From: Gordius sp. MW1
Taxonomy: Eukaryota > Nematomorpha > Gordioida > Gordea > Gordiidae
Assembly (NCBI GenBank): GCA_964036665.1
Contig: OZ038528.1
Span: forward strand, 17,285,245-17,349,244
DNA length: 64,000 nt
Direction of reading: 5' to 3'
The position numbers and the translations under genes are program-made. Shown here piece by piece: positions 3,543 to 64,000 of the stretch (its first letter is position 1; every line of letters starts with the position of its first letter). The notes under the pieces were generated by a model. It did no database searches. It saw nothing but the letters and a program-made list of their open reading frames with translations, and was not told where the DNA came from.

Positions 3543-6500
3543 TCAAAATTTCCGCGAAAGCCCAGGTTTCTTTTGCATTTTTCGCATCAGCATTTGCTTT
3601 TCCATCCGTATATCCTCCAAATCTTCCAATTTCCCTATCCTAGCACTAAAACACAAATATAATTTCCATTTGTTTCATTTATGATTTCAAAAAATATTAA
3701 TTAACTAAAGCACAAACCTTCGAGCCTCCTCCTTCATTTGTTCGCGGAAAGAAGTTTCTTCTATATCATCATCCCTTTCGTTCGCATACCTAAATGAGCA
3801 GCATTGAATGCAAATCATGAATGAATAAAGGAAAGAGAGAATAGAATCCGTCCCGCTGCCCGGCCGTAAATTTAGATTCTCGGGCTGGCACCAAAACAAG
3901 ATTCGAGATCGAGGAGATTTTTTATATTAGTTTTTGCTTATTATTTTGTTTTCGTGTATTACCCTTGTCCCTTTTGATTTAATTGTATGATGTTATAAAT
4001 CGTTGCTTTTTCTCCAAAACAAGAAAATTAAAATTCAAAAGTTTCGGAACATTAAAAAATTACTGCTATAAAAAAAAATCATCATCATCTCGGGCCGGGC
4101 AGTTTGGGATGCTCTGATGATTCGGGCATGGCCGGGCGGACGTTTAGAAGAGGTAGGGCCCAGATTGGCAATTTATATATATCATAGGACCGGGTCGGGT
4201 TATACACAAAAATTAAAACTGATTTGACCTTTGCAAGAAACAATAATAGTAGTTAGTGTTACCTAGTTTTGTCGTAACCAAATATATCTTTGATGTGCTT
4301 AGAATAATCATCGGTGTATTCTTTTTCTGGGCCATCACCATCGTCCACAAATGAATCCACTTCACTTTCATACTCCTCTTCTTCAAGCTCCGATTCACTT
4401 ATCTCTCCTCCGTAGTTGGAATTTCTCACGGCTAAAAATGTTAAAATATTTGTTAAACAGGTTCAATCAAATAAAATAATCATAAAAAAATCAACAAAAT
4501 TGAAACTCATCCAAGCTAAATAAAGAGTTAACATAATCATAAAATAGATATTTACCTTTACCAAAGGTACTATTGACATTTTGACATAAAATTGAAAATT
4601 CAATATTATCCAAGCTAAGTTCCTAATGAATGTTTTAGCTCTTGAAAAAAAGTACATCGATTTTCTGATCTTCGCAAAAAGAATGCCTTATATATTAAAG
4701 TTAGAGTATATGCCACAGAACTTGTCCGCTTTAATCTACAATATCATATTAACACTTCGTAGATCGGGTGGGGTAATAATGACCCCAAGCCGTTTAAAAA
4801 TGGTGTAAAATTTTTGGGGGTCGCTCTAATTATAGGTATAAAATTTAAACCACTTGATCAAATAGACAAATTAATATATTAATGAACGTATAAGAGTTGA
4901 AATATTATTCTTGCAAATTTTGACAAGTTTATATTATAAAATATGGAAGGTATAGCTATTTAAAGTTTGGGGTAATTATAACCTCAAATACCATCCGTGT
5001 TAGCATTTTTGACCCAACCTACGAAGTGTTAAAAAACTGTCATACCCTAAAACATAAGTTAAATTATGAACCGTTTGAAAAAACTGGGTTTGTTTGGTCG
5101 ACTTTGAACGAAAACTAACGGTCGACTATGGTCTGTTTTTAAAATATCGACTAAGGCTAGAGGTCGACTAAGAAAATCGGACCAAAATCCTTTGGTTTAT
5201 TTAGGTTTAATTTACCCAAGGCGACCAAACAAAACCCAGCCGTTTTTACAACACTAATATAAAATTAAGGAAAATTAATAATAACCACTTTCGGGCATTC
5301 TTCCGGGAGCCGGTAATAGGTGGCGGGGGATACTTCTCGGCAAAGCACAATTATTACTCTTGGCGAAGCTGGAGGGGGCAAAGCCATTTTTCGTGTATAT
5401 ACCATTGGGGTTGGGAGCCATGATAGTCGTCGACTGAACTGAGACTATTTTTGGCTTGGGGGTAGTCCCTTTGTTATCAAGGTTACCCGAGGCTTGAGGT
5501 TTAATTCGATCGGGCATTTTGTGGCAATACAAAATGTGATGATTGGAAGGAATTTTTGAATTCCCTTCCAGAGCGTCCACCTTCAACTTGGGTTTCGTTT
5601 GCGAAGATAACGTCGCCTTAGGCTTCGGGTGATTAGATTTGTCGGGCAATAGTCTGCTAGGTAAACTTGATACCGGCTGTGGACGGCCCATCTTTAATTT
5701 CGGGCCCAAAGATTTTTCTGAAACGTTTGGAGGCAAAACGGACTTTTCCACCGCCCTTTTTACCCCTTTATCAGCGGTGTTATTAAGGGACGTTTTAGGT
5801 GCGGGTTGGGAAGGCGTTTGTTTAGGTGGGACGGCGCCTAACTTCTTTTTAGGCGGATGCATCCTATACCTAATGTTAGCGTGGTTTCAAATATAGCTAC
5901 TGAAGTCACTAATGATTTGGCATTAGTGTTGTAAGAACGGCTGTGTTTGGTCGACATTTGGGTTTAGTCGATTAAGCATCAACATACCGAAGATTTTTGG
6001 TCTGTTTTTCTTAGTCGCATAAACTCAAACATCTAGTCCATTTATGTTTAGTCGACTAAAATCAAAGGGCGACCAAACAAAACCCAGCCGTTTTTACAAC
6101 ACTATTTGGCATAAAATTGCTTAAGTAACAGACTTTATTGAGGTAAGGGTTTCAAAAACGATGAATTTTGAAACGACAAGCAAATACATTTCACAACTTT
6201 AGTTCTTTAAAAGTCTCAGCCCATACCTCCACTCGGCCAATTGTCTCTCCAAACTCTTAGAAGAATGGTCATCGGGCGAGCCAGCATTTTTGTCCGCTCG
6301 ACCCGAAGCGTAATCTTTTTGCTTGAGTTCGGCCAACTTTAAAATCTCTTCGTATGACAAAGGCGGTGGAGCCGTTTTACACTTTTTCACCTTGAGAGGG
6401 CTAGTCGAACTAACGACCGGCTTTCTATGGTCGCCTGGTGTCGTGTTTTTAGGCTTGACGCTTGGCTCGGCGGCGCATTCCAATGGTCTTTTAACGCTTT

Positions 6501-14839: not shown

Positions 14840-14920
14840 TTAAGGGCCGGACAACACGGTTTTTTCCCTTTAACACCTAATAAACGCGAAGATCATATTG
14901 TGAGTTATAGATGTGGGAAG

Positions 14921-16636
14921 TAGTGATGCGGAAAAATCGAGAAAAATCTCGATCTCGTCTCGAAAAACCGAGACGAGAATTCGAAAAAGTGATTCGAGAT
15001 CGAGACGAGAATTTTTACCTCGAGACGAGACGAGATTTTATCGGCGAGATCGCGGCTTTAATTTTTATTTTTAACTATTGAGACTTAATTTAGCTAATTA
15101 AGAATTTTTATTTTATGAAATTTACATTTAGGATATTAAATGCAAGTTAATATAATTTTGAAACTTTTAATATTAAATAACTTAGGCACCTAATTATCCG
15201 CTTCGCGCAAATTTCAAATTTGAAATATAATCTTATTCAATAGACAACATAGTATTAGTGGCCCTTAGATTATATGAACAAATAATTATGTATTTATTAC
15301 TTATTTGTATAGCATAATTATATAATATAAAAATTTTAGACCTATAATGAGTTTATGCACATCAAGTTCATCCAACTCAAAAGAAAGCAAGCTGCTCAAA
15401 CATTTTACAATATCCAAGGATGAATCAAATAAATGGGGAAGCAAAAATTGTGCTCTAAAGCAGTAAAAATGACTGATAGCAATACTTCAGGTCTTCAACG
15501 ACATCTTATCTTAAACGTTATTATCATAAAATTACTATAACCTTTACCCTTCTCCAGATAATAAGGAATAAAAACTGCCCAAAAACTTTTTTTCAGCCAA
15601 CCTAAATGTTTTAAAAAATGTAAGCATATTTATTATATATCATATGTATACCTTGAAAATGATTATATAATTGTATAAATTATATAATTAGTTAATTAAC
15701 AAAAACAATTATACCAATCTGCCAGCAATGGCTAGAGATTTTCTGAGCACCCCGGCGACCTCGGTGCCTGCCAAGCTTGTTTTCGAAGGCCTCTCTGACT
15801 ATTCGAAAACATTGTAATTAAATAACTCATGAATCTGCCAGGAGCTTGCTATGCTTAAACTCATGGCACGCTTCAACAATTTTCAACCCATCACATTCAT
15901 AATATTTTACGTCTGTGAACTTGGCAGATTTCAAATTCACTGAATTGCAAAATGCTGCAATTTATTAATAAATTAATATATATGAACATAACCTTTATTA
16001 GTACGTAATTATTTTATGCGTCAATTAATAATAAATGGATTTGGTAAATATTTTGTTATATATAATGGGATGTCACACATTAATAGAATTGTTTAATTTT
16101 ATTGTTAACAACCTTAATTAAATTATATATGTGCAATTAACGCAGGACCTCAAAACTTTTATGTTCTTCCATCAATATTAGCCAGGGAATAAAAGTTATT
16201 AGTTAGCAACTTTATACCTTTGAGCATGGGCGTAGCCAAGGGGGGGGGGGCAGGGAGGGGCGGCCGCCTTTAATAAAATTATGGATAAAATTTAGAAAAA
16301 TGATCATTTTGCTCCTCCCTAAGTCATTATTGCCCCCCTCTAATCCCAATGCTGGCTACACCCATGCCTTTGAGTCAAGTAGTATATAACACCTATATTA
16401 ATGCTTCCTACCTTAAGTTACTCCTTGTGTTTGATAAATTTATATCTTATATAATAATTTATGAGCCAGAAAAACAATGGTATAATTATTTTTAAAAGTC
16501 GAGACGAGACGAGAATTTTCGCCGAGACGAAATCGAGATTTTTATGGGCCGAGACGAGACGAGATTTCAATAATCGCACCCGAGACGAGACGAGATTTTG
16601 CTTTCGAGACCGGGACGAGACGAGATCGAAACATTA
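14921..16636. mobile_element. GAGAC-rich hAT-like element, copy 1 (perfect 8-bp TSD)
   Basis: A 1716-bp element beginning TAGTGATGCGGAAAA and ending GATCGAAACATTA. It is flanked by GTGGGAAG on both sides (14913-14920 and 16637-16644). About 130 bp at each end are packed with GAGACGAGACGAGAT-type motifs; the interior is AT-rich and non-coding. It sits inside the endonuclease region of the RTE LINE. A second copy lies at 60615-61701 in the opposite orientation. It carries its own nested MITE at 16225-16366. No transposase is present. Confidence 0.9.
16225..16366. mobile_element. Nested hAT-like MITE, CATGGGCGTAGCC family, perfect TSD
   Basis: A 142-bp element from CATGGGCGTAGCCAAGG to GCTGGCTACACCCATG. 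The 8-bp duplication CCTTTGAG lies at 16217-16224 and 16367-16374. It inserted into the GAGAC element after that element had entered the LINE, giving three nested layers. Confidence 0.9.
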
Positions 16637-17761
16637 GTGGGAAGCATTTTAGTCAAATTGACTATCTGCTCATTAGGCGAAAGGACTTATGTAGCTTTAA
16701 GGATTTCAAAGCAATACCTGGAGAAAAAATCTCCAGGGAACATCGTCCCCTTGTTATGGATCTTGACAGAAAAGTATTTTCAGAAAGAAGAAAGGTCTAT
16801 GCACATCGAATTCGATAAGAAAGGTTAAAGGATACGCTGACGAACGAAAGACACCATCAAAAAGCCTCCTCACTCTTGGGTGCGAGAATGTTGCAAAGGG
16901 ACGTAGACGACGATTTAGAAGGACATAAGGGAAACAGCGATTCGAGTTCTAGGACAAATTAAAAGTGACAATGCGCTGAATAGGTAACTATGGTGGTCAG
17001 AGCAATTCGTTAGGGAATTCATCAACAGAAAGAAAAATCTATAAAGACGGTGGCATAAATCAAAAAAGTCAAAGGATTATCAAGAGTATAGGGAGGCAAA
17101 GAGAGACGCAAAAAAGGCCGTTGCAATAACAAAGAATACCGTGACATCGAGATGACAAACAAACTGGACTATATAGGGGGCGATAGGCCTATGTACAAAT
17201 TGGCCAAGATAAGGAGAAGAAAAGTCGCGATGTCGGCCTTAAAATAGTCAAAAAAGAGAAGGGTCAAACCTTATTCAAGCCGAAGGAAGTGATGAAAAGG
17301 TGGAAAGGATATTTTAAGAAACTTAATATTGCAAATGACAAAGATTTCCTTCTCGATATTTAGCCAACTATATGTATGGTGGAACTTTTTCAGGAGGATT
17401 GAGTTAGGACACAAATGAACAAAATGCAAAGAAAAAAAGCTAATGGCCTAGATGATACCTATGGGAAGCATTGCTCGGATGCCATGAAGATGGAGTCACG
17501 ACCATGACGAACCTCTTTAACAAGATATTGACAGAAGAGCTAATTACTAATCAATGGAGAGCAAGCACGAATATACCCTTATTTAAAGGACCCTCAGGAC
17601 AGTGGCAATTACAGGGGTATTAAGCTAAGTTTCCACTCCTTGAGGCTTATGGAAAGAATCTTAGTAACAAGGCTGAAAAACGAGGTGGAAATATCGGCTA
17701 ACCAATTGGGATTTGTGGCCAGCAAATCCACAATCACCCAATCTTCGCATTAAGATCAAAG

Positions 17762-26180: not shown

Positions 26181-26330
26181 TAAAACAAAGCTTGAAGTTC
26201 CGATTTATAGTTTATTCAAATATAACATAAGATCATAATAATGCGCAATTGATTACATTGTCACGTGTTAATGCTATGTTGTTTTATATAAATATATTTA
26301 GGTAATAACATTGTATAATCATTTATTACA
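26181..26330 (-). repeat. 5' LTR of Gypsy element 1
   Basis: 150 bp; on the minus strand it begins TGTAATAAATGATTATAC. It pairs with 20723-20871. The unusual end TTTTA, instead of CA, precedes the primer-binding site. Confidence 0.9.
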
Positions 26331-27450
26331 TTTTTAAATTTCCCAAATGTGTACAGTATAAGTATTTAAGTTTAAGATTTGTAATACATAGCAAAATGTC
26401 ATGTTTAGATTTTTAGGGTTAGAAACTAAGTTATTTTGAAATTTCCCAAAATGTGTACAGTATAAGTATTTAAGTTTAAGATTTGTAATATATAGCAAAA
26501 TGATATGTTTATATACATTAAAAACTAAGTTATTTTCAAATTTCCCAAAATGTGTACAGTATAAGTAATTAAGTTTAAGATTTGTAATACATAGCAAAAT
26601 GTCATGTTTATATAGATTTTTAGGGTTAGAAACTAAGTTATTTTCAAATTTCCCAAAATGTGTACAGCACAAGTAATTAAGTTTAAGATTTGTTACATAG
26701 CAAAATGTCATGTTTATATAGATTTTTAGGATTAAACTCTAAGTTATTTTCAAATTTCCCCAAATGTGTACAGTATAAGTATTTAGGTTTAAGATTTGTA
26801 ATACATAGCAAAATGTCATGTTTAGATAGACTTTTAGGTTAGAAACTAAGTTATTTTCAAATTTCAATGTGTACAGTATAAGTAATTAAGTTTAAGATTT
26901 GTAATACAAAATGTCATGTTTATATGGATTTTTAGGAATAGAAACTAAGTTATTTTCAAATTTCCCAAAATGTGTACAGTGTAAGTAATTAAGTTTAAGA
27001 TTTGTAATACATAGCAAAATGTCATGTATATATAGATTTTTAGGGTTAGAAACTAAGTTATTATCAAATTTCCCAATATGGGTACAGTATAAGTATTTAA
27101 GTTTAAGATTTGTAATACATAGCAAAATGTCATGTATATATAGATTTTTAGGATTAGAAACTAAGTTATTTTCAAATTTCCCAAATGTGTACAGTATAAG
27201 TATTTAGGTTAAGATTTGTAATACATAGCAAAATGTCATGTTTATATAGATTTTTAGGTTAGAAACTAAGTTATTTTCAAATTTCCCAAAATGTGTACAG
27301 TATAAGTATTTAAGTTTAAGATTTTTAATAAATAGCAAAATGTCATATTTATATAGATTTTTAGGGGTAGAAACTAATTATTTTCAAATTTGTAATATTT
27401 ACCAAAATGTTATTGTTATGTTTAAGATTCTTAGGGTTAGAAATTGTTAT
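26331..27450. repeat. Tandem array of ~107-bp units (about ten copies)
   Basis: The unit is roughly AAATTTCCCAAAATGTGTAC, AGTATAAGTATTTAAGTTTA, AGATTTGTAATACATAGCAA, AATGTCATGTTTATATAGAT and TTTTAGGGTTAGAAACTAAG plus TTATTTTC. The TGTACAG block recurs at about 26347, 26454, 26553, 26660, 26765, 26870, 26972, 27075, 27187 and 27292. A decayed partial unit follows to 27450. Open frames within it are artefacts of the repeat. Confidence 0.95.
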
Positions 27451-31739: not shown

Positions 31740-33420
31740 ATAATCTAAGCCATCCTTTTTAGGTCAATATGTAGCATCGAGCCGATATATGTAAACTTGT
31801 CTACATTTGAAACTTGAGATGGTCATCAAAGCGATAAGGAGCTTGTGACGTTTATTTCCGAGTATAAAGTTTTTCTCGTTGACTATTAAATCATATCCAG
31901 CTAAGCGTGATGACCACGCTTTGGCTTCTTCAATACTTTCACTCACCTTTGTCTCCTTGCATTATACTATTTCATAAGCATATAGCATACACTGCAAAGT
32001 CAGATTTTTTCAACCCGAACCCGACCCGACCCGGAATTTTTTTAAGGTTTTTAACCCGAGCCCGACCCAACCCGAAAGCATTTTAAAATTTTCAACCCGA
32101 GCCCGACCCGACCCGAAAGCATTTTCAAATTTTTAACCGGGATCCGCCCGACCCGAAAGCGTTTAATTTTTTTACCGAATCCCTCCCGAACGCGTACAAA
32201 TTTTGGTATCCAACGCGAGTAAGAAAAATTGCAGTGTGCATGATGGGCGTAGTTAGGGCTGGCAGGGACGGGCGGCTGCCCCCCTTTAACTCTAAAAAAT
32301 CTTTGAACTTTTATCAAATTATGGGGTAAAATTTAAAAAAGTGTTATTTGGCCCTTCCCTTACTCATCATTGCCTCCCTCCCCATGGCGGTGTGTAAAAT
32401 TTAATCGACAAATAAAAGTGCGATTTGCGAAACTAATTGATACCACAGATTTTGATTACTAATTTTATTTGAATTATTTATTATAGAGATATATAAATAT
32501 GATAACATCTACAATATCGAGTCACACTTAATTTGAAATATATAGTTTTGCAAATGAACCAGTTATTAAATTAAACTTACTTAAATTTGTTTTATGAATG
32601 TATGTTTATGTAGTTTGAATTAATAATGAACTACCACTTTACATTATTTAAATACAATTTAAAATATTATTTTCTTGATATATTTTATCTTTCGCGAGTC
32701 AAATTTGAATTTGCGTCCAAATCCAAAACAATCAAAAATTTAAAGGAATTTAATTAACTGAAAGAATGATTTTCAATTATACATTTCGATATTAATTAAA
32801 AAATATTATATATAATAGCATTAATTTAAAAGATATGTCCCGTGTATTTTGCATTGTAAGATTTATAACCTTTGACCCGACACTTTAAATCCAACCCGCC
32901 CGACCCGAAAGCATATTAAAATTTTCAACCCGAACCCAACCCGACCCGAAAACATTTTAAAATTTTCAATCCGAACCCGACCCGAAGACATTTCAAAATT
33001 TTTACCCGACCCGCCGTGCAGATCTCTAGCATACACCTAGGAGATGGCTATGAATTTCTCGCGTTTTCATGTCCATATGTTGAAGAAAAATGGACTTTGA
33101 GCAGATCCTTTATGTAATCCAACTTCGACTCGTAAAGGTTTAGAGTTCCCAATTATCGTTATAACGCATGAATTTGAGACTTCATAACTATTTTTCTTAA
33201 GCTGTACATATGCGTCAGACATATATTATACTTTCTTAGGCCTCACCATATTAAGTCGGTAGGGACCCTGTCATAAGCTTTCTCTAAGTCAATTTAGACC
33301 ATATGTAGGTCTATTATCACCCATATTTATACAAGGTCGGGTCGATTGTGAATTTGAGGACACAAACCGAATTTTCCATCTCGTTTTTTAGCCTTTTTAC
33401 TACGATCCTTTCCATAAGTT
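31740..33420 (-). pseudogene. Second RTE-type LINE fragment, split by a hAT-like element
   Basis: The upstream part (33420-33037, minus) has ERIVVKRLKNEM, TYIWSKLT and a SKLDYIKDLLKVHF segment that matches the GLHQGSALSPF block of the other LINE. The downstream part (31984-31740) has ESIEEAKAWSSRLAGYDLIV and KCRQVYIYRLDA, equivalent to EEAEKWSKRLAGYGL and PQVDRFTYLDS in the copy at 18500. The FADD box is again not visible. Stops are frequent. The interruption is the element at 31993-33028. Confidence 0.75.
31993..33028. mobile_element. GGGTCGGGTTC-rich hAT-like element, copy 1
   Basis: A 1036-bp element flanked by the perfect 8-bp repeat GCATACAC (31985-31992 and 33029-33036). The right end is GTGCAGATCTCTA. 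The left end begins TGCAAAGTC and seems to lack the outer 8 bp seen in copy 2. Both ends carry repeated CCCGACCCGAACCCG-type motifs. The interior includes a decayed GGGCGTAGCC-type MITE (about 32236-32391). It is inserted in the minus-strand LINE. Confidence 0.85.
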
Positions 33421-35153: not shown

Positions 35154-37341
35154 CAGTGGCGTAGCTAGCCTTTTTGCCTGGGGGGGGGGGGGGCTGCGCA
35201 AATCAAGCCATGCGGGGGACAAAAAAAATTTAACTAAAAAAACCCTTAAAAATTAAAAAAAATTATGTTTTGCCCCCCCCCCCCTCCCCCCCTAATCCAA
35301 AACCTGGATACGATCATGGGTCAAACGCAAATGAAAAATTTTACCCTCATAAACATTGGACTAAAATTCCGCTACTACTTTGTGTATTTGTTCTAATAAC
35401 ATCACACTGGTATGTCTTAGACCGGCATGTTTCTAGGGCATAAAATAAATAAAATTTATTCATAAATAAAACAAAGTAATGTAGTTGAAGCAATATTGAA
35501 AATTTCACTTGGTATAATAAGTTTTTGTATAAATGAATTGTAAGGGCACAAAGTGGAACGGGAATATTGACAAGAAATCATTGACATTTTAGAAAATAAT
35601 ACAAATAGTAAAAAAACTATAAAACAAAGTTTTATAGATTTTAAAAAATTTTTTATACAACCCCAAAAATCTGGCCATATATATAACAAATTTTAATTTT
35701 ACATATGCACTATTGGCAGCATTTTCAGGCAGCATTTATATAAGGAAAAGAATGAGAACATTTAAAAGTCTTTTTTGGCTAGATCACAAAAGGTGTAATT
35801 ATAACATAAAATATAAAAAAAATTAATTATGAAATTCAAATTCCATCGAGAATAAGTGTTTAGATGTTATTCTCCTTGATGATATTATAGATATATTTGC
35901 ACAACCCCTCCCCCCCCCCCCTTACACCACTTAAAAATAAAATGAACTAATAAATTTAACGGCTAAATGAACCTTAAAAATATTCTGTTAAAATTAAATG
36001 AATAAAAATTTTACTTAATAATTTTAGATGAAATTAGAGATGTGAGATGCACAGAACAACGTAGCGTTTGTGTACATTTTGCTGAATTCAATGGCACACC
36101 AAAAGGAATTTTTTGGGGGGTTTTATCCCTTGAAAGTTTTGATGCGCTAACAATTGTCTATAAAATTCAGAAATTTGTTATTAATATTAATTTATAAACT
36201 TTTGATGGGATATCACTAATAAAGGGGAAAAAGTAGTGTACAAACGATTTTTTGGAAAATCATTGGCTTTGTATGTCCATGTGGTACGTAAAAATACGTA
36301 AAATATGTCAAACAATAAGCATGTGAGGCCAATTAAATTTAATCCAGGATAGAATTTTCGTAAATTTAATAATATTTTAATATATTTTGAAAGTGTTAAA
36401 AAGTTTAAGATAATTTTTCATTAAATATTAAAATTAGTCTTTTAATAGTAGTTCATTACGCCTTTTACTCGATGTTGCAAACGAATTTATAACATCATCC
36501 GGGTGAATGATATTTATAAAGTCATGTTCTAAGCTCAATAAAGCTAAGGAAGATAACCTATCTTGTTCAATTATGGAACGAAAATAGTATTAATCCATTT
36601 TAGCAATGAGAACGATCCTTCGCATGAACATGAAGTTATTGGGATAGTTAAAATTATTTTATCAAAATAATAAAATTTGGAAACACTATTGAGGGCAAAA
36701 TTTTAATAAGTGAATAAATATCATTTTAGTTTATTGTAAAGAATTATAATATACATAATTTTTGCCATTTTATTTCGGCATCTTGCAGTTTTAATTCAAA
36801 TGGTTAATAACTTCTGATAAAAGAGATTTATCGCAAAAAAAGGGTATGAAGTTTTTAAACCTTACCTTCTAAAGACCTACATAGATTACAATTAATTTCC
36901 GAAAATCTTATGTTTAATTCTGCTATTATTCTATCGATGATAGGATGATAGAAATCAATTTTGAAATCAATTAATGAATTGGTAGATTCGAAAGAGTAAA
37001 AAGTGTCATTTTTTGGTTCTTTAATACGTTTGGAAGATACCAAATCAAAAATTGAAGCTAAATGTTTCGCCTTATTATAAAGAATTTGATAGTTATCCTC
37101 ATTTCTAATATCCTTTAAAGTTAATATTAGACTATTAAGCGTTGAAATTGCATTTATTAAACAAATATTTGCTCTTTATATTATAATTTAATAATCTTCA
37201 TATTTTGTCTTAATTGATGAAATAAAAAAATGGCTTCCGGGGCTCAGGGGCCCAAGATTTTTCCCTTGGGAGGGGGCCATGGGATCCGGTTTATGCTCTT
37301 GGGGGCTCGGGCCTCCTGGACTCCCTCTAGCTACGCCACTG
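35154..37341 (-). mobile_element. hAT transposon with perfect 8-bp TSD
   Basis: A 2188-bp element with ends CAGTGGCGTAGCTAG and CTAGCTACGCCACTG. Each side is flanked by GTGATACC (35146-35153 and 37342-37349). G runs lie just inside the left end, and short C runs recur inside. It carries a degraded transposase on the minus strand. Matching ends and intact duplications prove it transposed as a unit. It is a plausible source of activity for the GGCGTAGCC-type MITEs, whose ends share GGCGTAGC. Confidence 0.95.
36430..37200 (-). pseudogene. hAT transposase, TTF/DUF4371-like, degraded
   Basis: The upstream part (about 37200-36862) reads LKDIRNEDNYQILYNKAK and HPIIDRIIAELNIRFSEI, a standard segment of DUF4371-type hAT transposases. 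It ends at a plausible donor (GAAG/GTAAGG). The downstream part (about 36660-36430) is the C-terminal dimerisation domain: TIPITSCSCEGSFSLLKWI (CERSFS changed to CEGSFS), then in a shifted frame RSIIEQDRLSSLALLSLEHD, ending NELLLKD and TAA. The frameshift near 36590 and the missing N-terminal and catalytic parts mean it is not functional as read. The family cuts and pastes elements with 8-bp target duplications. Confidence 0.8.
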
Positions 37342-38143: not shown

Positions 38144-39193
38144 ATGGATTCCTTGAATTATTCATCGACAGATCGCCTATTTCTTGTCATCATATTGATT
38201 ACTTCAATCGGTGGCATTATTGGCAACATATTTTTATTATACGTTATAAGGGTAACTAAAAAACTTCGTGAACAATCCTCGATGCTAATCATTTTCAGTT
38301 TAACATTGTGTGACGCCCTTGGAGGTCTATCTTATGGATTAGGTTACATATTATTTTACTTCGCCAGACACCTGGCCACGAATACTTATTTTTGCACATC
38401 GATTGGAATTTGCAATGAAATTTTCTTTTTATCGCACTCTATTCACTTGTTTGTACTCGCTTTTAATCGCTTACTAAACGTGTGTTTCCCATTTGCTAAA
38501 TTTTCTCTCATTTTAAACTCCAAGAAAAATATCATGATCCAACTGGCTTGTACATGGCTAATCAGCATAGTTATTCGTGTATTCCATTGGTTTATAGGAG
38601 GCATAGTTTTTTACAAATTCTACAAGAATTGCACAGTGAATTACCAAAAATTTAAAAATCCCACCTTTAAAACCCATTTGATATGGCAATATCTTAATAT
38701 ATTTGTAATACTAATCATGTACATTGCAATTATAATAAAATTGCGGGAACAGAGAAGGGTGATGGGCAATTGGGAAACAAGTGTAGTAAGCGGACAAGTG
38801 AGTGCCCCAAGCGCGAATTCCAAATCTATCCTAGGAAAGCTTTACAGGCAAACCAACCGTTCTAATGTATCATCCATCAATGCCACGGTCTCATCTATGA
38901 GAACAAACCAAGGTTATATGTCTCCAAACAAAAAGAAAGCACGAGAGCGAGACCTAGTCTTGTATTCGCTCACGTTATTTATTTTCTATTTTATAGCAAC
39001 TGTAACCTTTAATGTCTCGAGTCAAAAATTCTCTCAAAACGCAACCACTCATAAAACTATCTCCAACTTTCTTTCATTATTTTATTATTTTCTCTTTTCA
39101 TTTAATCCAATCATTTCTTTCGGTTTTACAAAGGTATTCAAGGAAGAGGCCAAAAAAATTTTATGCAAATCATCTGCTACTTTTAATCGCTAG
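38144..39193 (+). CDS. Seven-transmembrane receptor A, intronless, 349 aa
   Basis: A single-exon rhodopsin-like receptor. TM1 (about residues 12-35) has IGNIFLLYVI with the conserved N. TM2 contains LTLCDALGGLSYGLGYILFY. A cysteine (FCTSIG, about residue 86) sits before TM3. TM3 ends VLAFNRLLNVCFPF, where NR replaces DR of DRY. A long third loop, basic and serine/threonine rich (about 200-265), precedes TM6 (LVLYSLTLFIFYFIATV). TM7 carries SFNPIISFGF, a version of NPxxY. A short basic tail follows. It is predicted to sit in the plasma membrane and signal through G proteins; the ligand is unknown. It is a clear paralogue of 57127-58260. The family resembles nematode chemoreceptor-type receptors, but I cannot assign a subfamily. 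No stops or frameshifts. Confidence 0.85.
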   Translation: MDSLNYSSTDRLFLVIILITSIGGIIGNIFLLYVIRVTKKLREQSSMLIIFSLTLCDALGGLSYGLGYILFYFARHLATNTYFCTSIGICNEIFFLSHSIHLFVLAFNRLLNVCFPFAKFSLILNSKKNIMIQLACTWLISIVIRVFHWFIGGIVFYKFYKNCTVNYQKFKNPTFKTHLIWQYLNIFVILIMYIAIIIKLREQRRVMGNWETSVVSGQVSAPSANSKSILGKLYRQTNRSNVSSINATVSSMRTNQGYMSPNKKKARERDLVLYSLTLFIFYFIATVTFNVSSQKFSQNATTHKTISNFLSLFYYFLFSFNPIISFGFTKVFKEEAKKILCKSSATFNR

Positions 39194-40604: not shown

Positions 40605-40935
40605 AGTGTAAAACGGCTGGGTTTTGTTTAGTCGACCTTTGGTTTTGGTCTAATTTATTTATAAACTTAGCATGTAATTTTGGAAAGCATAATTTATTTA
40701 AATACTATAAATAACTTAAATACTTGGCACAATTTATTTAAATACTTAGCATAATATATTTAAATACTTAGCATATAATTTAAATATTTAGCAAAATATT
40801 AAAATACTTAGCAAATAAATAAAATACTTAGCAAAACGATAAAATACTTGGCAATTTTTTTTAATACTTAAATGAATAAAATACTTAGCATTTGAATTTA
40901 AAACTTAGATTTAATTTAAAAACTTAGCAAACGAC
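40605..40935. repeat. ACTTAGCA short-motif array, left of the foldback element
   Basis: It starts with a TAGTGTAAAACGGCTGGG end (40611) of the TAGTGTTGTAA MITE family. More than ten spaced copies of AATACTTAGCA or AAACTTAGCA follow. The same motif recurs at 42715-42812 and 55795-56245. Confidence 0.8.
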
Positions 40936-40939
40936 TTAA

Positions 40940-42745
40940 ACACCTAGCTATAGTTGTTAAATTGCTAACTTTAGCAACGCTAACTATGTGCTATGCTCGA
41001 GCACAAACACTAGCTGGGTAATATGCTAACACATTGAGTGCTAAGCTAACTGTTCGGTGCAATAGTTTTAACAGTAGCACGTAAAAATGCTCGAGAGGTT
41101 AGTCGATAGCAGCCAAATCTGTTAAAAAATTTAGCAGGAGCTCGAGCAGTAAATTCAAGCATTGATTTGCTTTTGTTAAACTATTTTAGTTACTTACAAT
41201 ATTTGCTCATGGTATATTATAAAGTTATTATATTATAGTTTTATAAGAAATTAAGCATGTTGAGCATAAATGATGGATTGCACAAGATGAGATTGTATAT
41301 TTGATTTTTTACTTGACATGTTATTATATACATTTTGAGTTTTTAGGTATAAATATTTTGTACAGGTGGTTAAATAAATATATAAGGGGTAAATGTCATA
41401 ATCTATGTTTAAGATGCAATTTAAATTTTTTTCAAATTGTGACTCACTAGGAGCTTAAAAAATGTTTTTCACCTTTAAAATTAAGATTTTAACAGTTTGC
41501 CGCAGGGGTTCGTCCCAACCTCTGAACCCGCCGGGAAAAACCCGATGTTTTACGGAACCCGAACCCATTTTGAAAATACCCTTAAAACCCGAACCCGATG
41601 AATACAAAATTTTCGCCATCTATTAGTAAAAATTTTAAATCGTACCTGAGCCACCGCTAAACTTTCAAAAATCTTAATTTCAAAGGTGAAAAACATTTTT
41701 TAAGTTCTTAGTGAGTCATAATTTGAAAAAATAATTTAAATCCCATAATAAACATAGATTATGACATTTGTCACCTGAGCGACCGCTAAACTTTCAAAAA
41801 TCTTAATTTCAAAGGTGAAAACCATTTTTTAAGCTCTTAGTGAGTCACAATTTGAAAAAAAAATTTAAATCCCATAATAAACATAGATTATGACATTTGT
41901 CACCTGGGCGACCGCTAAACTTTTAAAAATCTTAATTTCAAAGTGAAAACCATTTTTTAAGTTCTTAGTGAGTCACAATTTGAAAAAAAAATTTAAATCG
42001 CATCATAAACATAGATTATGACATTTGTCACCTGGGCGACCGCTAAACTTTTAAAAATCTTAATTTCAAGGGTGAAAAACATTTTTTAAGTTCTTAGTGA
42101 GTCACAATTTCAAAAAAAAAATTTAAATCGCATCATAAACATAGATTATGACATTTGTCACCTGGGCGACCGCTAAACTTTTAAAAATCTTAATTTCAAA
42201 GTTGAAAAACATTTTTTAAACTCTTAGTGAGTCAAAATTTGTAGAAAAAATTTAAATCGCATCATAAACATAGATTATGACATTTACCCCTTATATATTT
42301 ATTTAACCACCTGTACAAAATATTTATACCTAAAAACTCAAAATGTATATAATAACATATCAAGTAAAAAATCAAATATACAATCTCATCTTATTATCGT
42401 GCAATCCATCATTTATGCTCAACATGCTTAATTTTTTATAAAACTATAATATAATAACTTTATAATATACCATGAGCAAATATTGTAAGTAACTAAAATA
42501 GTTTAACAAAAGCAATTCAATCTACTATCTGCTCGAATTTACTGCTCGAGCTCCTGCTAAATTTTTTAACAGATTTGGCTGCTATCGACTAACCTCTCGA
42601 GCATTTTTACGTGCTACTGTTAAAACTATTGCACCGAACAGTTAGCTTAGCACTCAATGTGTTAGCATTTTACCCAGCTAGTGTTCGTGCTCGAGTTTTT
42701 AGTTGAAGCTGCTTAGCAATTTAACAACTATACACCTAGCAAATG
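40940..42745. mobile_element. Large foldback element with ~500-bp arms
   Basis: The left arm (about 40940-41490) and right arm (about 42150-42745) are inverted copies. For example, GCTCGAGCACAAACACTAGC (about 40996) pairs with GCTAGTGTTCGTGCTCGAG (about 42677), and GCAGGAGCTCGAGCAGTAAA pairs with TTTACTGCTCGAGCTCCTGC. The core holds five ~126-bp tandem units and a GAACCCG-rich stretch near 41500-41600. No ORF exists. Arms are nearly identical, which suggests recent origin or gene conversion. Confidence 0.9.
41640..42285. repeat. Five tandem ~126-bp units inside the foldback element
   Basis: Each unit carries TCACCTGGGCGACCGCTAAA, AATCTTAATTTCAAAGGTGA, TTAGTGAGTCACAATTTGAA and AACATAGATTATGACATTTG. 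Starts are near 41645, 41772, 41900, 42028 and 42150. A part of one unit is also present inverted at 41400-41490, in the left arm. Confidence 0.9.
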
Positions 42746-43379
42746 AATAAAAGATTAGAAATGACGCTAAAAATACTTAGCAATTTGAATAAAATACTTA
42801 GCAAATAATTTTTTGGGGTTAACAATTCTATTAGTCTTGGAAGCAGGGAAATTTAAACTTTATGAATGTGACAAATATTATGTTGGTGAGGTAATTTGAA
42901 AATTTTTGACTTTTTATTTGATGCTAAATACTAATTAAAATATCAAAGTATAAAAAATTAGCTTGACACTAAATAAATTTACATTTTATGTATTAGAATT
43001 TATTGTATTTGTTTTTATACATACATAAAATTGATGTATATTATTATTTAATAGACTCACTTAACAATTCTTAGTAATAATTTGATATTAGTCTTAGAAG
43101 GGGGAAAAATATAAACTTTATTAATAAGACAAATATTAAGTTGATAGGTAATTAGAAAATAATTGACTTTTCATTTTATGCTAAATATTAATAAAAATGT
43201 TTTACTCTAAATACAATCCTCGTCCAAACAATTTTTCATAATGTTTTAAATGACATCTGTTAATTTTAGCGCCAAATCTGGCATTAAAACTAGGGATTAT
43301 GTGTTTTTGGGAATGTGCCTAGGTACCACCTAAATTGGATAGTAACTATGTTTAACTAAGCACTAATTTAGATTGGTGC
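42746..43379. other. AT-rich DNA beyond the foldback element
   Basis: The first 70 bp still hold ACTTAGCA motifs. After that, CTTTATTAATAAGACAAATATTAAGTTGATA-like sequence at 43116-43150 echoes 42858-42885, so an imperfect ~260-bp direct duplication is likely. No genes. Confidence 0.4.
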
Positions 43380-53559: not shown

Positions 53560-53934
53560 ACCTATGATAATGAGTGTGAGGCAAAAAGGGCTCTTAAAGC
53601 CGAAAATATATGGGGTTTTTGGGACCGAAATGAAACTGAGGAAGGCATTAAGATGTATTACAGGTAATGTACTTCTAAAATGGGACTTCAAATTACCTAC
53701 AATACATTCATTGCTTTTTTAAGAATGAATGGATCAATAAGAATAATACATCGTACATTGGTTATCGACTTTATACTCCAACCACAAACAACTGTTTGGA
53801 ATCAACTAATAGGACTATAAAAGATTATTATACGTTAAGAGAAAGAATCCCTCTTGCTCGTTTTAAAATTGTAGCGATGGATATGGTTAAAAAGTGGTCC
53901 GTATGTTACCAACTACAACAAATCACAATAGCAT

Positions 53935-55074
53935 TAGAGAACTGCACGGGTGACCCGACCCGGACCCGACCCGATGGTCGGGTTCGGGTCAAAAATTTTG
54001 AAATATCTTCGGGTCGGGTTTGGGTTGAAAATTTTGAAAAGCTTTTGGGTCGGGTTCGGGTTAAAAATTTTAATGTGCTTTCGGGTCGGGCCGGGTTGGA
54101 TTTAAAGTGTCGGGTCACGGGTTATGAATCTTACATTGCAGAATACACGAGACATATCTTTAACAATAATGCTATTATGTATAATATTTTTTAATTAATA
54201 TCGAAATTTATAATTGAAGATCATTCATTAAGTTAATATAAATTACTTTTGTTTTTTTTTAAATCTAATTGTTTTAATTTGAACGCAAATTTAAATTTGA
54301 CTCGAGAAAATATCAACAAAATAATATTTTTAAATTGTATTTAAATAATGTGAAGTGGTAGTTATTTATTAGTTTAAGCTACATAAATATATATTCATAA
54401 AACAAATAAGATTATGTTTAAATTTATTAAATGATTCATTTACAAAACTCTATATTTCAAATTGAATGTGACCTGATACTGATTGCTATCATATTAATTT
54501 ATATATATATATATCTATAATAAATCATGAAAATAAATTTAGTAATCAAAATCTGTGGAATTAATTAGTTTCATAAATCGCACTTTAATTTGTTGGTTAA
54601 ATTTTAAACACCCTCATGGGAGTAGCCCGGAAATTGAAATTAGAGGGGGCAATAATGATTAAGGGAGGGGCAAACTGAACATTTTTTTATTTTTAGCCAT
54701 AATTTGATAAAATATCTAAGATTTTTCAAATTTAGACGGGGGCAGCCGCCCCTCCCTGCCACCCCCTGGCTACACCCATGCACCCCGCAATTTTTTTTAC
54801 TCTCGCGTTGGATACCAAAATTTGAAACACGTTCGGAAGCGATTCGGTTAAAATTTTTTTAACACTTTCGGGTCGGGCCGAATCGGGTTCGGTTTAAAAT
54901 TTTAAAATGCTTTCGGGTCGGGTTCGGGTTAAAAATTTGAAAATGCTTTTAAGTCGGGTCGGGTTCGGGTTGAAAAATTTAAAGTGCTTTCGGGTCGGGT
55001 CGGGTCCGGGTTAAAAATTTAAAAAAAATTTTGGGTCGGGGCAGGTTCGGGAAAAATGACTTTGCAGTTCTCTA
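53935..55074. mobile_element. GGGTCGGGTTC-rich hAT-like element, copy 2 (perfect TSD)
   Basis: A 1140-bp element with ends TAGAGAACTGCA and TGCAGTTCTCTA. It is flanked by AATAGCAT at 53927-53934 and 55075-55082. About 190 bp at each end repeat TCGGGTTCGGGT-type motifs separated by AAAATTTT spacers. The interior is the inverted equivalent of 31993-33028 and contains a CATGGGAGTAGCCCGG-type MITE at 54615-54782. Confidence 0.95.
54615..54782. mobile_element. Nested GGCGTAGCC-type MITE
   Basis: The ends are CATGGGAGTAGCCCGG and CTGGCTACACCCATG. The same insertion is visible, more decayed, at 32236-32391 in the sister element. The MITE therefore inserted before these two copies of the host element separated. 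Confidence 0.85.
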
Positions 55075-55464
55075 AATAGCATCTATTCCAACAATTTCAA
55101 CAAAGCTTTGGACAGAACGCTACCAATGGGCAAAGCTCAACAAAAATGCTATAATGTACAACAATAAAAATAAAAAAAATTATATTGTACCTGCCAAAAG
55201 AAGTCAATCAATATATCAAGATGACAATCAGACTAGGCCTCCTATGAGGATTTCAAAAAGCAAAATTTTATGGCGTGGCCCATAACCTTCCTTGAAGAAA
55301 GCCATATGTGGCAAAAGGGTCAATGCAGTTGCCCCTCATTTCACAATAATTACATCTGCAAGCATATAATAGGATTAGCCTCAACACTAAAATTCTGCAA
55401 ACCTCCTATGGAAGCTAATAATGTCACAATAAGAGAGAAGACGAGGAAGACCTTCCGAAGCTAA

Positions 55465-55790: not shown

Positions 55791-55794
55791 TTTG

Positions 55795-56245
55795 AATTAA
55801 AAAACTTAGTATTTTAAATTAATAACTTAGCACTTCAAAATAAAAAACCTAGCATTTTTATATTTTAACTTAGCATTTTTAAAAATTAAACATTTTTTTT
55901 GAAATTATTAGCATTAAAACTTTGCTTATTTTAGCTTAAAACCTTATTATCTTATATTTTTTTAATACTTAGTATTTTGAGTAAAATTAATAGCTTTTTT
56001 TTTAAATAAAATACTTAGCATATTAATAAAAAAACCTAGCATATCAAAACAAAAACTTAGCAATATAATAATAAAAACTTAACATTTTAATGAAAAACTT
56101 ATCATATTTTGAAAATAAAAAACTTAACATTCCCTTTAAAAAACTTAGCATTTAGATTAAAATACTTAACATAAAATACTTCGCAAGCACTTTAATTAAA
56201 ATACTTAGCATAAATTACTTAGCAATTTGTAATTTTTTACTTAGC
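55795..56245. repeat. ACTTAGCA short-motif array
   Basis: More than fifteen copies of AAAACTTAGCATTT-like motif (AACTTAGCA, TACTTAGCA) at 15-35 bp spacing. It matches the arrays that flank the foldback element at 40605-40935 and 42715-42812. Confidence 0.8.
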
Positions 56246-57126: not shown

Positions 57127-58260
57127 ATGATAACCGATCCCTATCCTGGGTTATACCTTACAACACGAGTCGGTTCTATCGTTTTATTCGTTATTTCGGT
57201 GTTGGGAACTTTAGGCAATGCTTTTTTGTTGACAATAATACTCAGCAACAAAAAACTGAGAGTCCATCCAACAATGATGCTCATTTCAAGTCTAACAATT
57301 TGCGACTTGATAGGTGGACAGGTATTTAGTCTCGGTTATCTCCTCTTCATTTTTAAACGAAGTTTGTCAACCAGATGGCTTCTCTGTTCGGTTTTCGGAA
57401 TGATCACAGAAACGGCGTTTTTATCCCATTCGATTCACATGTTTTTCCTAGCGTTAAATAGGTACATTTACGTGTGCCACCCATTCAAAGTTAATAAATG
57501 GGTAACGGCAACCGTAACTAAGTGGGAAATTTCAGCGATTTGGTTAATCTCAGTTTTTGTCAGAATAGGACATCAACAAGCGGGTCCGGGCATAGTATTT
57601 ATACCAAACGTGGGAAACTGCCTAATGGGTTACAATGCTTATGCCGCTTTGATCTTTACTATCCATATGTATTGGCAATACATTAATATAGGTGTCATAA
57701 TTATATTGTACTTTCTCATACTTAAGACGATGAGACATCAGAGAATAGCTATAACCAAAACTGAATCGTTTACTAATCATACCACCCCCGTGGCCACTGC
57801 AGCACCTAATAGCCAAATAATATCAACTCAGTTAAAAACTGAAAATCGCTTAACAAAATTATCCAACCTTTTTAACGAAGTTAGTGATTTAGCAACTGAA
57901 AAAACGAATACGAATACTCAACTGCAAAGAAGAGTTGATCAAGTTAGAAGAGAACGAAAAGAGCGAGAAAGAGATGTAGCTTGGTACTTTCTAATGATTT
58001 TTGGCGTTTTTCTGTTCGTAACATTAACGTTTACAGCCTCGGATAAGATTGTTTATAAAAACACAGCCGCAAAGTATGCGTACTATTTCATCTTTAATTT
58101 CTTTTTCTGCTTTACATTTACCATGAATTCCGTGATCTCCTTTGCATTCACTAAATTATTTAGGACAGAAGCCAAATTGTTTATCTCTCAAAAATATAAA
58201 AAACTTAGAATTACGTGCGCTCAACTTAAAGAAAAATTATGTACAATTTTTGAATTTTAA
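57127..58260 (+). CDS. Seven-transmembrane receptor B, intronless, 377 aa
   Basis: A single-exon paralogue of receptor A. TM1 (about 14-38) has LGTLGNAFLLTIIL. TM2 has LTICDLIGGQVFSLGYLLF. A conserved cysteine (LLCSVFG, about residue 88) precedes TM3, which ends FLALNRYIYVCHPF with NRY in place of DRY. TM4 and TM5 surround a loop with NVGNCLMG, whose cysteine could pair with the TM3 cysteine. The third loop (about 205-285) is long, polar and basic, ending RRERKERERD. TM6 is WYFLMIFGVFLFVTLTF. TM7 has TMNSVISFAF, where S replaces the P of NPxxY. The tail is rich in K and Q. It is likely a plasma-membrane G-protein-coupled receptor with unknown ligand. The frame is intact, and an AATAAA overlaps the stop region. 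Confidence 0.85.
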   Translation: MITDPYPGLYLTTRVGSIVLFVISVLGTLGNAFLLTIILSNKKLRVHPTMMLISSLTICDLIGGQVFSLGYLLFIFKRSLSTRWLLCSVFGMITETAFLSHSIHMFFLALNRYIYVCHPFKVNKWVTATVTKWEISAIWLISVFVRIGHQQAGPGIVFIPNVGNCLMGYNAYAALIFTIHMYWQYINIGVIIILYFLILKTMRHQRIAITKTESFTNHTTPVATAAPNSQIISTQLKTENRLTKLSNLFNEVSDLATEKTNTNTQLQRRVDQVRRERKERERDVAWYFLMIFGVFLFVTLTFTASDKIVYKNTAAKYAYYFIFNFFFCFTFTMNSVISFAFTKLFRTEAKLFISQKYKKLRITCAQLKEKLCTIFEF

Positions 58261-60614: not shown

Positions 60615-61701
60615 TAATGTTTCGATCTCGTCTCGTCTCGGAAGCGATTATGAAATTCTCGATCTCGTCTCGTCTTGGTCTGGAAAAATCTCGGTCTCGT
60701 CTCGACTTTTTTAAAAAAATATATACGGAATAAAAATTTCTTCTGTTTTATTAAAAATATTATATAAATGTTAAAAAAATCCAAATGGCAAACTTTTATA
60801 TTTTTTTTTTAAATTTTGATACACACACTTTTTAAAGATTTAGCCGGACACGACATCTCATTGACAAAATAAAAATATGAATTAATTCATAAAGATAACA
60901 TTCTCCATAGAAATTGCAGACTAAAAACTATAAATAAATTTGAATAGAAAGTTTTATTTTATTGTTTTATCAAATTATAATATTTGAATCAAATTCACTG
61001 TGTCTGTCAACTATAAATAGACTTAGAAAATTATAAGTTCGTTTATAGTTGACTTTGCATAATTGAGCAAATTAAGACCCTTTATTAACCCCGGTTAAAG
61101 CTTCGAAGTAGACCTTAAAAAATTTAGGGCAAACGTTTATGTACATTGATATTACCCTCATACATTATATCCCATATATTTATTGTATGTTTACTATAGC
61201 GTTATAGAGCCACCTTAGCTTAACTTGCATAATTATTCAAACTGATAGACCACCAATTTATAATTACCTCATCATGCAGGATGAGTAACTGCGAAATTAA
61301 AATATTCTTTAGTAATATTTACTATTCCATCAGAACTCATTCTAAGCCTAAAATTTTGTATATTTAATAATGCTATGGATAAAAATATGTGATAAATATA
61401 TTATAAAATTATTCACATACCCTAAGGGTCAACCATATTTAGGTTAATGATTGCCAAATTTTAAAACTTGCAAAAATATATAATAATATTTACTACGCTT
61501 AGGACTTTTTTTAATATCAAATATATTCCAAACATATTGAGTTACTTAATATCTTAGATCTAAATCATGCAAATTAAAATACGCAATAATTTACTAAAAT
61601 CTAACAATCAATAAAAAGTCTAGATCACGCCAATCTCGTCTCGTCTCAATTTTTCGAGACGAGACGAGACAGAGAATTTTCTCGGGTTTTCCGCATCACT
61701 A
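60615..61701. mobile_element. GAGAC-rich hAT-like element, copy 2 (8-bp TSD, one mismatch)
   Basis: A 1087-bp element in the opposite orientation to 14921-16636. The left end is TAATGTTTCGATCTCGTCTC and the right end is TTTTCCGCATCACTA. Flanks are ATCCCTTC (60607-60614) and AACCCTTC (61702-61709). Motif arrays CTCGTCTCGTCTC occur at both ends. It is shorter than copy 1 because copy 1 holds extra AT-rich DNA and a nested MITE. Confidence 0.9.
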
Positions 61702-62779: not shown

Positions 62780-63836
62780 GCCTACGCTGTTGAAAAACTT
62801 ATCTATGTGATATTTTATAATGTGATTCAAAATGTATGTATGAATATGAAATGCTAAATAATTAAATTTAGTATTAAAGGGGTTTATTACATCTTAATTT
62901 AGGCTCATTTTCATAAATAAAAATTACACTTAGAAAGGGCTGTGTGCCCAACTATGGACATGTAGGTATCGAATTTATTAAAAGATCTTTGAAGCTTAGC
63001 AAATATTCGATTTTATAAATAACCCTGGAAAAAGTCTTTTTTTAGCCGCATTTCTGTACACAAAATCAAGGTATAATATTAAAAGTGTCATGTTAACAAA
63101 ATCACAACTTTTGGAGTTATCAATCAGGAAATTATTCTGATAATATTATTTGCGAATCAAGATGTGGTATTTAATATAAATATCAAACTATTCACCCGGG
63201 ATATCTTAATTGAACTATCAGTAATAGCAATAAATATTGCATAAGATTTCGGATTTTTATGAACCGGACCTACGGGCCAATTTTGGTAGGGGGCCGTGTC
63301 TAATATTCTTTAAAAATTAATAAAAAAATGAGCCCGGGCAGGCTTGAAAGTTCTCCAAACGGGTACAAGCGGGCTTGATGTGCACAATAAAATAACTGAT
63401 GTGCTCGGGGGGAGGGGGGGGGCTGAAAGTTTTTAAAGCAGGCACGAAGGGGGGGGGGGGTCGGCTCCTAAAAACGCCCCATTGCAGATCTCTAGTTGAT
63501 ATATTATTTAGCATTATCCCTATAATATTAAAAGTAAATCTAGTCCCTAAAAAGTATCATTTGATGATGCATCTTATTCAATTTTGCGAACTGATCTATA
63601 AAAGCTACAAGAGTCTGGGCTGGCCAAGGCTAAAACATAACTGGGACAAAATAAAATAATTGGGCTTTAGGCGGATCTGATAAGCCTGTTTAATAAACTC
63701 ATGCCCACACCTCAAAATTGTTTAATCGAATTCTCATTTAATAAAAACATTCATATAAAATAGCGATTATAAGTTAAAAAATAAAATAAAAAGACAAGTT
63801 CAAAAACTTTATAGTTTTAGCTACGCCTGTGGGAAA
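62780..63836. other. AT-rich DNA with G-rich patches
   Basis: G-runs at 63409-63421 and 63450-63460, and GCAGATCTCTAG near 63484, the last resembling the TAGAGATCTGCA end of the GGGTCGGG elements. No gene is supported. Confidence 0.35.
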
Positions 63837-64000
63837 TATTCGAGATTCGATTCGATATTCGATTCGGATTCGGATTCGATTCGAAATTTCGAATCGAATC
63901 CGAATTCGATTCTTATATGTAAATTTCGAATCGAATATTTAGTTGCTGAGATTCGAAAATTCGAATCGAATCTTTAAAAAAAAATTCGAAAATTTATTTA
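63837..64000. repeat. ATTCGATTCG-rich array running off the window
   Basis: Repeated GATTCGATTCG, ATTCGGATTCGG and TTCGAATCGAATC motifs begin after GGGAAATATTCGAG. The layout is like the ends of the GAGAC and GGGTCGGG families, so this may be the left end of a third such element. The other end is outside. Confidence 0.6.

Follow-up and report, generated by a model that had tools for sequence, protein, structure and literature searches.

Pentamer arrays at the ends of coexisting hAT transposon families in Gordius sp. MW1, probable targets of the families' own BED fingers

Introduction

The transposase of Herves binds CG(A/G)ATTCAT repeats at both ends of its element, and these repeats are critical and sufficient for that binding; according to the Herves authors, a hAT enzyme is kept to its own element by differing binding sites (PMC3143072, accessible portion). 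That hATs owe their specificity to differing binding sites is an already published idea (PMC3143072; PMC8097297; accessible portions of both). In the Hermes crystal, the side chains of Q64, S66, N67 and R70 contact bases; Hermes places several BED domains on its left end, which is quasi-palindromic, whereas the right end has none (PMC10368747, in the part available). Proteins that combine BED and Hermes domains usually prefer CGG or CGC, some of them A+T-rich motifs, and the four hAT-encoded BED proteins that worked have motifs matching the subterminal regions of their own elements (PMC8097297, in the text available).

How a BED finger chooses its DNA is poorly known, Hermes being the one co-crystal in the literature examined. 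Elements of the hAT type are expected to have a short terminal inverted repeat that starts T/C-A-G or similar, and Repbase includes plant and insect hATs with CGGGT-rich ends similar to those described below. In the open-access literature that we searched, we found no papers on pentamer arrays in hATs. Here we analyse such arrays in one stretch of 64,000 bp (C2:17285245-17349244; hereafter, the window) and across the genome that contains it (211.8 Mb, 12 contigs).

Results

Array-ended elements in the window

An initial annotation had claimed four array-ended elements with 8-bp target duplications. These are real, and a fifth duplication belongs to a third motif, ATTCG, which proved to be part of a complete element with arrays at both ends; duplications are exact in four of the five elements and contain one mismatch in the other (GA2), as had been claimed. 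The features are as follows.

14921..16636, + strand: GA1, internally deleted (CGAGA)n hAT element
14913-14920 and 16637-16644: GA1 target duplications, GTGGGAAG on both sides, exact
14953..15035, + strand: GA1 left array, direct CGAGA units behind an inverted outermost copy
15355..15512 (bounds approximate), + strand: remnant of a BED zinc-finger exon in GA1, MTDSNTSGLQRHL retained, frame broken
16225..16366, no strand assigned: small G-rich MITE inside GA1, ends CATGGGCGTAGCC/GGCTACACCCATG, read by eye
16217-16224 and 16367-16374: the MITE's own 8-bp duplication, CCTTTGAG, read by eye
16500..16625, + strand: GA1 right array, units all in the same direction
31993..33028, - strand: GG1, non-coding (CGGGT)n hAT element
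31985-31992 and 33029-33036: GG1 duplications, GCATACAC, exact
53935..55074, + strand: GG2, (CGGGT)n hAT element, non-coding, with terminal repeat TAGAGAACTGCA
53927-53934 and 55075-55082: GG2 duplications, AATAGCAT, exact
60615..61701, - strand: GA2, short (CGAGA)n hAT element flanked by ATCCCTTC/AACCCTTC, duplications with one mismatch
63822-64650 (63822..64000 in the window), + strand: ATTCG element, (CGATT/CGGATT)n hAT, 829 bp
63814-63821 and, in L042, following the right end: ATTCG element duplication, GTTTTAGC, exact

The layout of the four elements was also as claimed, except that GG1 is incomplete at one terminus: its low-coordinate end begins TGCAAAGTC and is without the outer 8 bp (TAGAGAAC) that are present in GG2 and in full-length relatives. 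The right end of the ATTCG element lies 650 bp beyond the window. Within the window, all 19 CGAGACGAGA sites fall inside GA1 and GA2, and 21 of 22 GGGTCGGG sites fall inside GG1 and GG2, the remaining one being at 4192. The MITE entered GA1 later than GA1's own insertion.

The terminal repeat of GG2 carries the hAT signature and matches at 12 of 12 positions; that of the GAGAC family (TAGTGATGCGG) matches its right-end counterpart (TAGTGTTTCGA) at 8 of 11, and that of the ATTCG element (TACGCCTGTGG), with TACGCC, is less typical of hATs. Duplications of this length and subterminal repeats might instead point to Mutator-like elements (MULEs), since all 14 mosquito families were described with 8-9-bp duplications and 10 of the 12 with long terminal inverted repeats have 9-15-bp subterminal tandem repeats (PMC5225508, accessible portion). 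However, the terminal repeats here are about 5-15 bp rather than more than 100 bp (family X, below, apart), and the presence in full-length copies of PF05699 hAT transposases matching Hermes refutes this identity, whose probability we consider negligible.

The window contains other repeats and genes. The ACTTAGCA arrays (40686-42830 and 55791-56230) were considered as another hAT family and rejected as a minisatellite of about 20 bp; the second, at 55791-56230, has a period of about 20-22 bp. Inserted in the ACTTAGCA minisatellite is an element (40949-42732) with a 20/20 terminal repeat TATAGTTGTTAAATTGCTAA, a duplication CACCTAGC and a 129-bp tandem array in its middle. A hAT-like element at 35154-37341 has a 15/15 terminal repeat CAGTGGCGTAGCTAG and an exact duplication GTGATACC, with no CG arrays seen in it; a tandem array of about 8 copies of a 108-bp unit occupies 26330-27391; and two long single-frame genes (38144-39193 and 57127-58260) appear receptor-like from their translations.

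Full-length relatives and further lineages

Copies with transposase frames, and related lineages, were recovered elsewhere in the genome.

GAGAC, L039: 3595 bp, duplication GTAATTCC, BED exon with a stop, listed hAT frame of 459 aa
GAGAC, L040a: 3352 bp, duplication TAAATTGC, BED frame of 89 aa and hAT frame of 573 aa
GAGAC, L040b: 3367 bp, duplication ATTAGGTT, BED frame of 89 aa and hAT frame of 573 aa
GGGTC, C7:6164806 (C7): 3263 bp, terminal repeat TAGAGAACTGCA, duplication GTTAGTAT, exact
GGGTC, C7:5891262 (C7): 3296 bp, terminal repeat TAGAGAACTGCA, duplication ATCCAAGC, exact
ATTCG, L059: 2828 bp, duplication GGAAAAAG/GAAAAAAG, one mismatch, frames of 233 and 341 aa
GC lineage: terminal repeat TAGAGGCCTGCA, motif CGGGT, short copies L009, L011, L012, L014 and L031 with exact duplications
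CC lineage: terminal repeat TAGAGCCCTGCA, motif CGGGC, full-length copy L033+L067 with exact duplication AGGACAGG, BED and hAT frames
GATCC lineage: terminal repeat TAGAGGTGTGCACGG, motif CGGAT, short, clean copy L074 with exact duplication GTTAGGAT
Family X: L036+L069, TAGTGATGGGGAAA ends, exact duplication CCCTCAGG

These copies bear out the proposal of hAT families each with its own array, in that full-length GAGAC, GGGTC and ATTCG elements hold a transposase between matching arrays. All three full-length GAGAC copies have exact 8-bp duplications with the BED and hAT frames between the arrays, and the full-length GGGTC copies, on our reading of the sequence, appear to carry a multi-exon gene. 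A third GGGTC copy (C5:14097719) has both ends, with its flanking repeat shifted by one base; in two more GGGTC stretches a left end was sought and none was found. The full-length GC copy, inside L025+L070, has flanks that share 6 bp only (GGCTCA), and the 8-bp repeat CTATTATA of the full-length GATCC copy L080 appears only if a left TA is counted as lost. On the reverse strand of L025+L070, the GC-type element is nested in a CC-type element with duplication CGCGTATC/CACGTATC.

The stricter suggestion that each motif corresponds to one transposase is not supported as a strict rule: arrays are family-specific and the transposases deeply different, but CGGGT is common to two lineages, which have the terminal repeats TAGAGAAC and TAGAGGCC and share 65% identity in their N-terminal parts, and family X has no CG pentamer array in L036 and does not obey the array grammar described below. 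The ends of family X are long, nearly symmetric and inverted, made of CTATAGGAGATGGGA-like units, and like units adjoin L082. For L072, which encodes a protein of the X lineage, ends were looked for and not found. No complete element was found at L075, L076, L077, L078 or L079, the last two of which have a GATCC left array; L082/L083 has a (CGGGC)n array on the 3' side only, and a duplication looked for there was not found. L081 shows neither array nor terminal repeat in the 3.5 kb examined. It is the one read, BED finger included, of at least 21 places with near-equal scores (19.4-19.9 bits, under the Pfam cut-off) and open frames of up to 530 aa, which represent either a gene that has multiplied or a hAT lineage of recent origin. 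On C4, four equal-scoring matches to GGGTC and PF05699 (near 0.19, 0.31, 1.54 and 1.68 Mb) form mirrored pairs, which suggests a large duplication or inversion.

Comparison with full-length copies indicates what the short ones have lost. GA1 aligns to L040a at 77-91% identity in three parts (1-724, 2316-2814 and the right end); its catalytic middle is therefore gone and a broken BED exon is kept; the BED helix is the same in GA1, L039 and L040. GA2, GG1 and GG2 resemble full-length copies chiefly at the ends, and the ATTCG element resembles L059 over its left 267 bp (84% identity) and right 331 bp (72%); over its left ~180 bp it is 99% identical to five other places. Non-autonomous copies thus retain their ends with most of the middle gone.

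Transposase proteins

The GAGAC protein contains zf-BED, PF05699 and PF14372, and the GGGTC protein zf-BED, DBD_Tnp_Hermes and PF05699 (Pfam). PF05699, the C-terminal dimerisation domain of hATs (Dimer_Tnp_hAT), matches GAGAC at 1.1e-22, ATTCG at 6.7e-23 and GGGTC at 2.6e-25, and all three proteins exceed the 20.6-bit cut-off of the BED model PF02892 (36.3, 21.4 and 23.5 bits, respectively); the GATCC finger was seen by its match to the Hermes BED structure. With PF14372, which we take to be the Ac-type hAT RNase-H model, the GAGAC protein scores 29.9 bits, over the cut-off of 27, and its predicted transposase is accordingly of the Ac type, whereas the ATTCG protein matches at 25.0 bits, under the cut-off, and may be so too. 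DBD_Tnp_Hermes scores 29.1 bits against a cut-off of 20.5 in the GGGTC protein and is also over it at the GC, CC, GATCC and L082 places; the Pfam search did not report it in the GAGAC or ATTCG proteins. Judged by these domains, the transposases of the GGGTC group are Hermes-type.

Sequence matches to Hermes in the PDB were significant for GAGAC (3.8e-12) and for the N-terminal parts of GGGTC (1.5e-12) and GATCC (6.9e-47). In GATCC, TLDLWTD and VTDQGSN align to Hermes acidic motifs (the query was without its C-terminal part), and in GAGAC, SVPAERLFS aligns over the Hermes glutamate region, the first aspartate being covered only in a non-significant piece; here we presume which Hermes residues are the catalytic D, D and E. 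Comparison of GAGAC, ATTCG and GGGTC-AA gives 26-43% identity in the BED segment. As predicted from sequence, the families have a common catalytic plan and different fingers.

Motif counts and the tie to element ends

The CGAGA 15-mer CGAGACGAGACGAGA occurs at 5789 places genome-wide, as against 1 for the reversed pattern, and the CGGGT 15-mer CGGGTCGGGTCGGGT at 2115, as against 29; PF05699 scores at no fewer than 150 places (i.e., at least 150). The looser spaced CGNNN pattern CGNNNCGNNNCGNNNCG outnumbers the reversed control only slightly (3199 vs. 2586 places), a comparison that is not decisive because the control can also be satisfied by GGGCC arrays. Among 50 CGNNN places listed, 43 were by eye recognisable CGAGA, CGGAT, CGGGT or CGGGC arrays, 4 were mixed and 3 unrelated.

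That the motifs are tied to element ends, as the initial annotation expected, is largely correct. In 29 complete elements, the zone left after setting aside 400 bp at each end contained none of four motif patterns in 22 and a single motif in 7, although this zone is small in short elements and the elements had been found via their ends. By a simple rule that pairs neighbouring clusters no more than 4 kb apart, 83 of the first 100 CGAGA sites and 65 of the first 100 CGGGT sites lie in paired clusters (28 of 36 and 30 of 55 clusters, respectively). A minority of arrays therefore stand alone, a larger one for CGGGT; these are perhaps broken or solo ends.

The expectation that no copies would lack duplications was likewise upheld in part. 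Among 21 GAGAC left ends (20 of 40 listed places, plus one more in L040), 14 belong to elements with both ends and a duplication, which is exact in 10 (one read by eye, with a changed terminal repeat) and has one mismatch in 4. A search of about 4.7 kb found no right end for the other 7, although in L046 and L051 this interval contains further array clusters. At the 30 PF05699 loci L009-L038, with 3.2 kb taken per locus, both ends and a duplication with at most one mismatch were present in 8; L010 and L016 have both ends and no matching duplication, and the remaining 20 have one end or neither within that distance.

Array grammar

In the CG families, CpG density is 5.6-8.6 per 100 bp at the ends versus 1.5-2.5 in the interior, and a CG-CG spacing of 5 is the commonest at the ends (in GGGTC-AA, second to 41), with other peaks near 10-11 and 30-42 (14 GAGAC, 5 GGGTC, 6 GC, 5 CC, 2 ATTCG and 1 GATCC elements). 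From these peaks, each family's array consists of tandem CG-N3 units in blocks, with A+T-rich spacers between them. The motifs are CGAGA, CGGGT, CGGGC, CGGAT and CGATT, and the period-5 grammar is found in both Ac-type and Hermes-type families. Observed/expected CpG across the window is 0.95, indicating little CpG loss there.

Orientation is also patterned. In 13 of 14 GAGAC elements (exception, L043) and 4 of 5 GGGTC-AA elements (exception, GG1), the left array starts with inverted units and turns direct further inward, a layout reminiscent of the quasi-palindromic left end of Hermes, to which BED domains bind (PMC10368747, accessible portion); right-end units are unidirectional in all 19. 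Four of five short GC copies have the inverted-then-direct order, save one forward unit within the terminal sequence; orientation is irregular in CC arrays and turns at both ends in ATTCG arrays.

CpG-rich patches of this kind could be mainly promoter, insulator or chromatin signals, read by BED-type host factors and unconnected with end recognition, and BED-finger host proteins do bind CG-containing sites (PMC8097297, accessible portion). However, the arrays are at both ends even in copies that have no gene to express, and the motif varies by family along with the family's own BED helix. We therefore regard host signals as a very unlikely main role for the arrays.

Array turnover and recent activity

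In L040, a stretch of 9 kb holds a pair of full-length GAGAC transposons that are oppositely oriented and have different target duplications. All 3352 aligned bases of L040a and L040b are identical, and the two gaps between them, of 10 and 5 bp, are whole units in the left array; copies identical save for array units, with different duplications, indicate that activity is recent. Among GGGTC copies of the 99.5% identity class, terminal arrays contain 7 of 9 gaps between C7a and C7b and 5 of 8 between C7a and C5 (C7a is in both pairs), and these gaps are mostly whole units of 5, 10, 16 or 41 bp. The array rule is weaker between L040a and L039, where 3 of 7 gaps are in the ends, and neither of the two gaps between the local duplicates L041a and L041b is in the ends. 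The latter are two GAGAC copies 3.2 kb apart, 99.8% identical and with a common flanking 8-mer GTCAAAAA, and so probably represent one insertion copied by local duplication. The transposed pairs that are most alike thus show array length evolving faster than base sequence, with the motif staying with the family.

Such rapid change in unit number is what would be expected if the arrays were by-products of replication slippage or end repair (i.e., micro- or minisatellite growth at hairpin-prone ends), inherited and unread by any transposase. Several observations make this explanation unlikely: GG1 and GG2 kept their arrays with most of the middle lost (in part by construction, as copies were found by their ends), array orientation and left-right asymmetry are conserved, and families of the Ac and Hermes types alike follow the period-5 CG grammar. 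Moreover, the Herves transposase has been proven to bind a related subterminal repeat (PMC3143072, accessible portion). The two processes may act together, slippage making units while binding keeps them.

Discussion

The hAT families described here are real, common in the genome, recently active and ordinary in kind. We consider it very probable, taking the explanation as a whole, that the window copies are non-autonomous deletion derivatives of several coexisting hAT families, the BED fingers of which would read the family's pentamer array. A family's transposase would find its own ends first, through its N-terminal BED zinc finger, with several fingers of the transposase oligomer binding cooperatively, initially at the inverted pair nearest the left end and then along the direct blocks. 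It would then cut at the short terminal repeat, leaving the 8-bp target duplication. Since the right-end repeats of Hermes are not BED-bound in cryo-EM, some array units may go unoccupied. The terminal repeat and chemistry would be shared or slow to change, and the array motif and recognition helix would change together.

If helix and motif are coupled, residues at the Hermes contact positions might follow the array. Aligned on the zinc histidine, residues 66, 67 and 70 are N, H, K in GGGTC-AA (4 copies) and GC (1 copy), N/T/Y, H, R in CC (3 copies with broken frames; array read in L033) and S, H, H in GATCC (1 copy). The L082 helix, examined after the readings of the other four lineages had been noted, is S, H, R, with a 3' array of CGGGC. 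Outside GC, position 64 is occupied by G; in GC it coincides with an intron junction, and the residue may be R. The five Hermes-type lineages are thus sorted by motif according to residue 70 (CGGGT goes with K, CGGGC with R and CGGAT with H), a statistically weak pattern: by our own arithmetic, shuffling gives a match this good in about 2 of 30 ways. A small tree built from six N-terminal parts does not join CC and L082 as sisters (support is 84 for L082 + GATCC + L081). With five lineages, two of them sisters, the sorting is only a lead.

A readable BED-finger code is accordingly a tentative and rather doubtful extension. It would have a constant CG(G) core paired with a constant H67, and last bases that follow position 70; families would split when helix and array switch together, with terminal repeat and chemistry unchanged, and growth and shrinkage of arrays by whole pentamers, faster than base change, would supply the variation. 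One genome contains at least six transposase lineages with separate readable arrays, some with copies so alike that movement must be recent. With these matched finger-array pairs, a recognition code, and the way in which sibling transposons gain independence from each other, can be tested directly, and it is in this parallel series of fingers and arrays that their value lies.

Comparison with known systems places these families among described hATs (cited papers from their accessible portions). Ac and Tol2 are similar in having a BED finger and short subterminal repeats (PMC10368747, PMC3143072), and differ in motif, density and tandem layout. The CGGBP and hAT-19-like proteins also combine zf-BED with a Hermes domain and have many motifs in one genome, that of the coelacanth (PMC8097297); they are, however, mostly domesticated host proteins, whereas here a transposase accompanies its own array in recently active-looking elements. 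Hermes of the housefly (PDB 8edg, 8eb5) is like GGGTC-AA, GC, CC, GATCC and L082, in which its DNA-binding domain is over the Pfam cut-off, and shares with them inverted sites after the left terminal repeat and A+T-rich site flanks (PMC10368747); its BED site, AAGT, has no CG core and its repeats are sparse, in contrast to the CG-pentamer arrays in 30-41-bp blocks at both ends here. Herves of Anopheles gambiae resembles the ATTCG family in its CGATT core and in repeats at both ends (PMC3143072). Relative to Herves, the Gordius elements have dense period-5 tandem blocks and form several coexisting families, with a motif that differs by family and a binding that is predicted.
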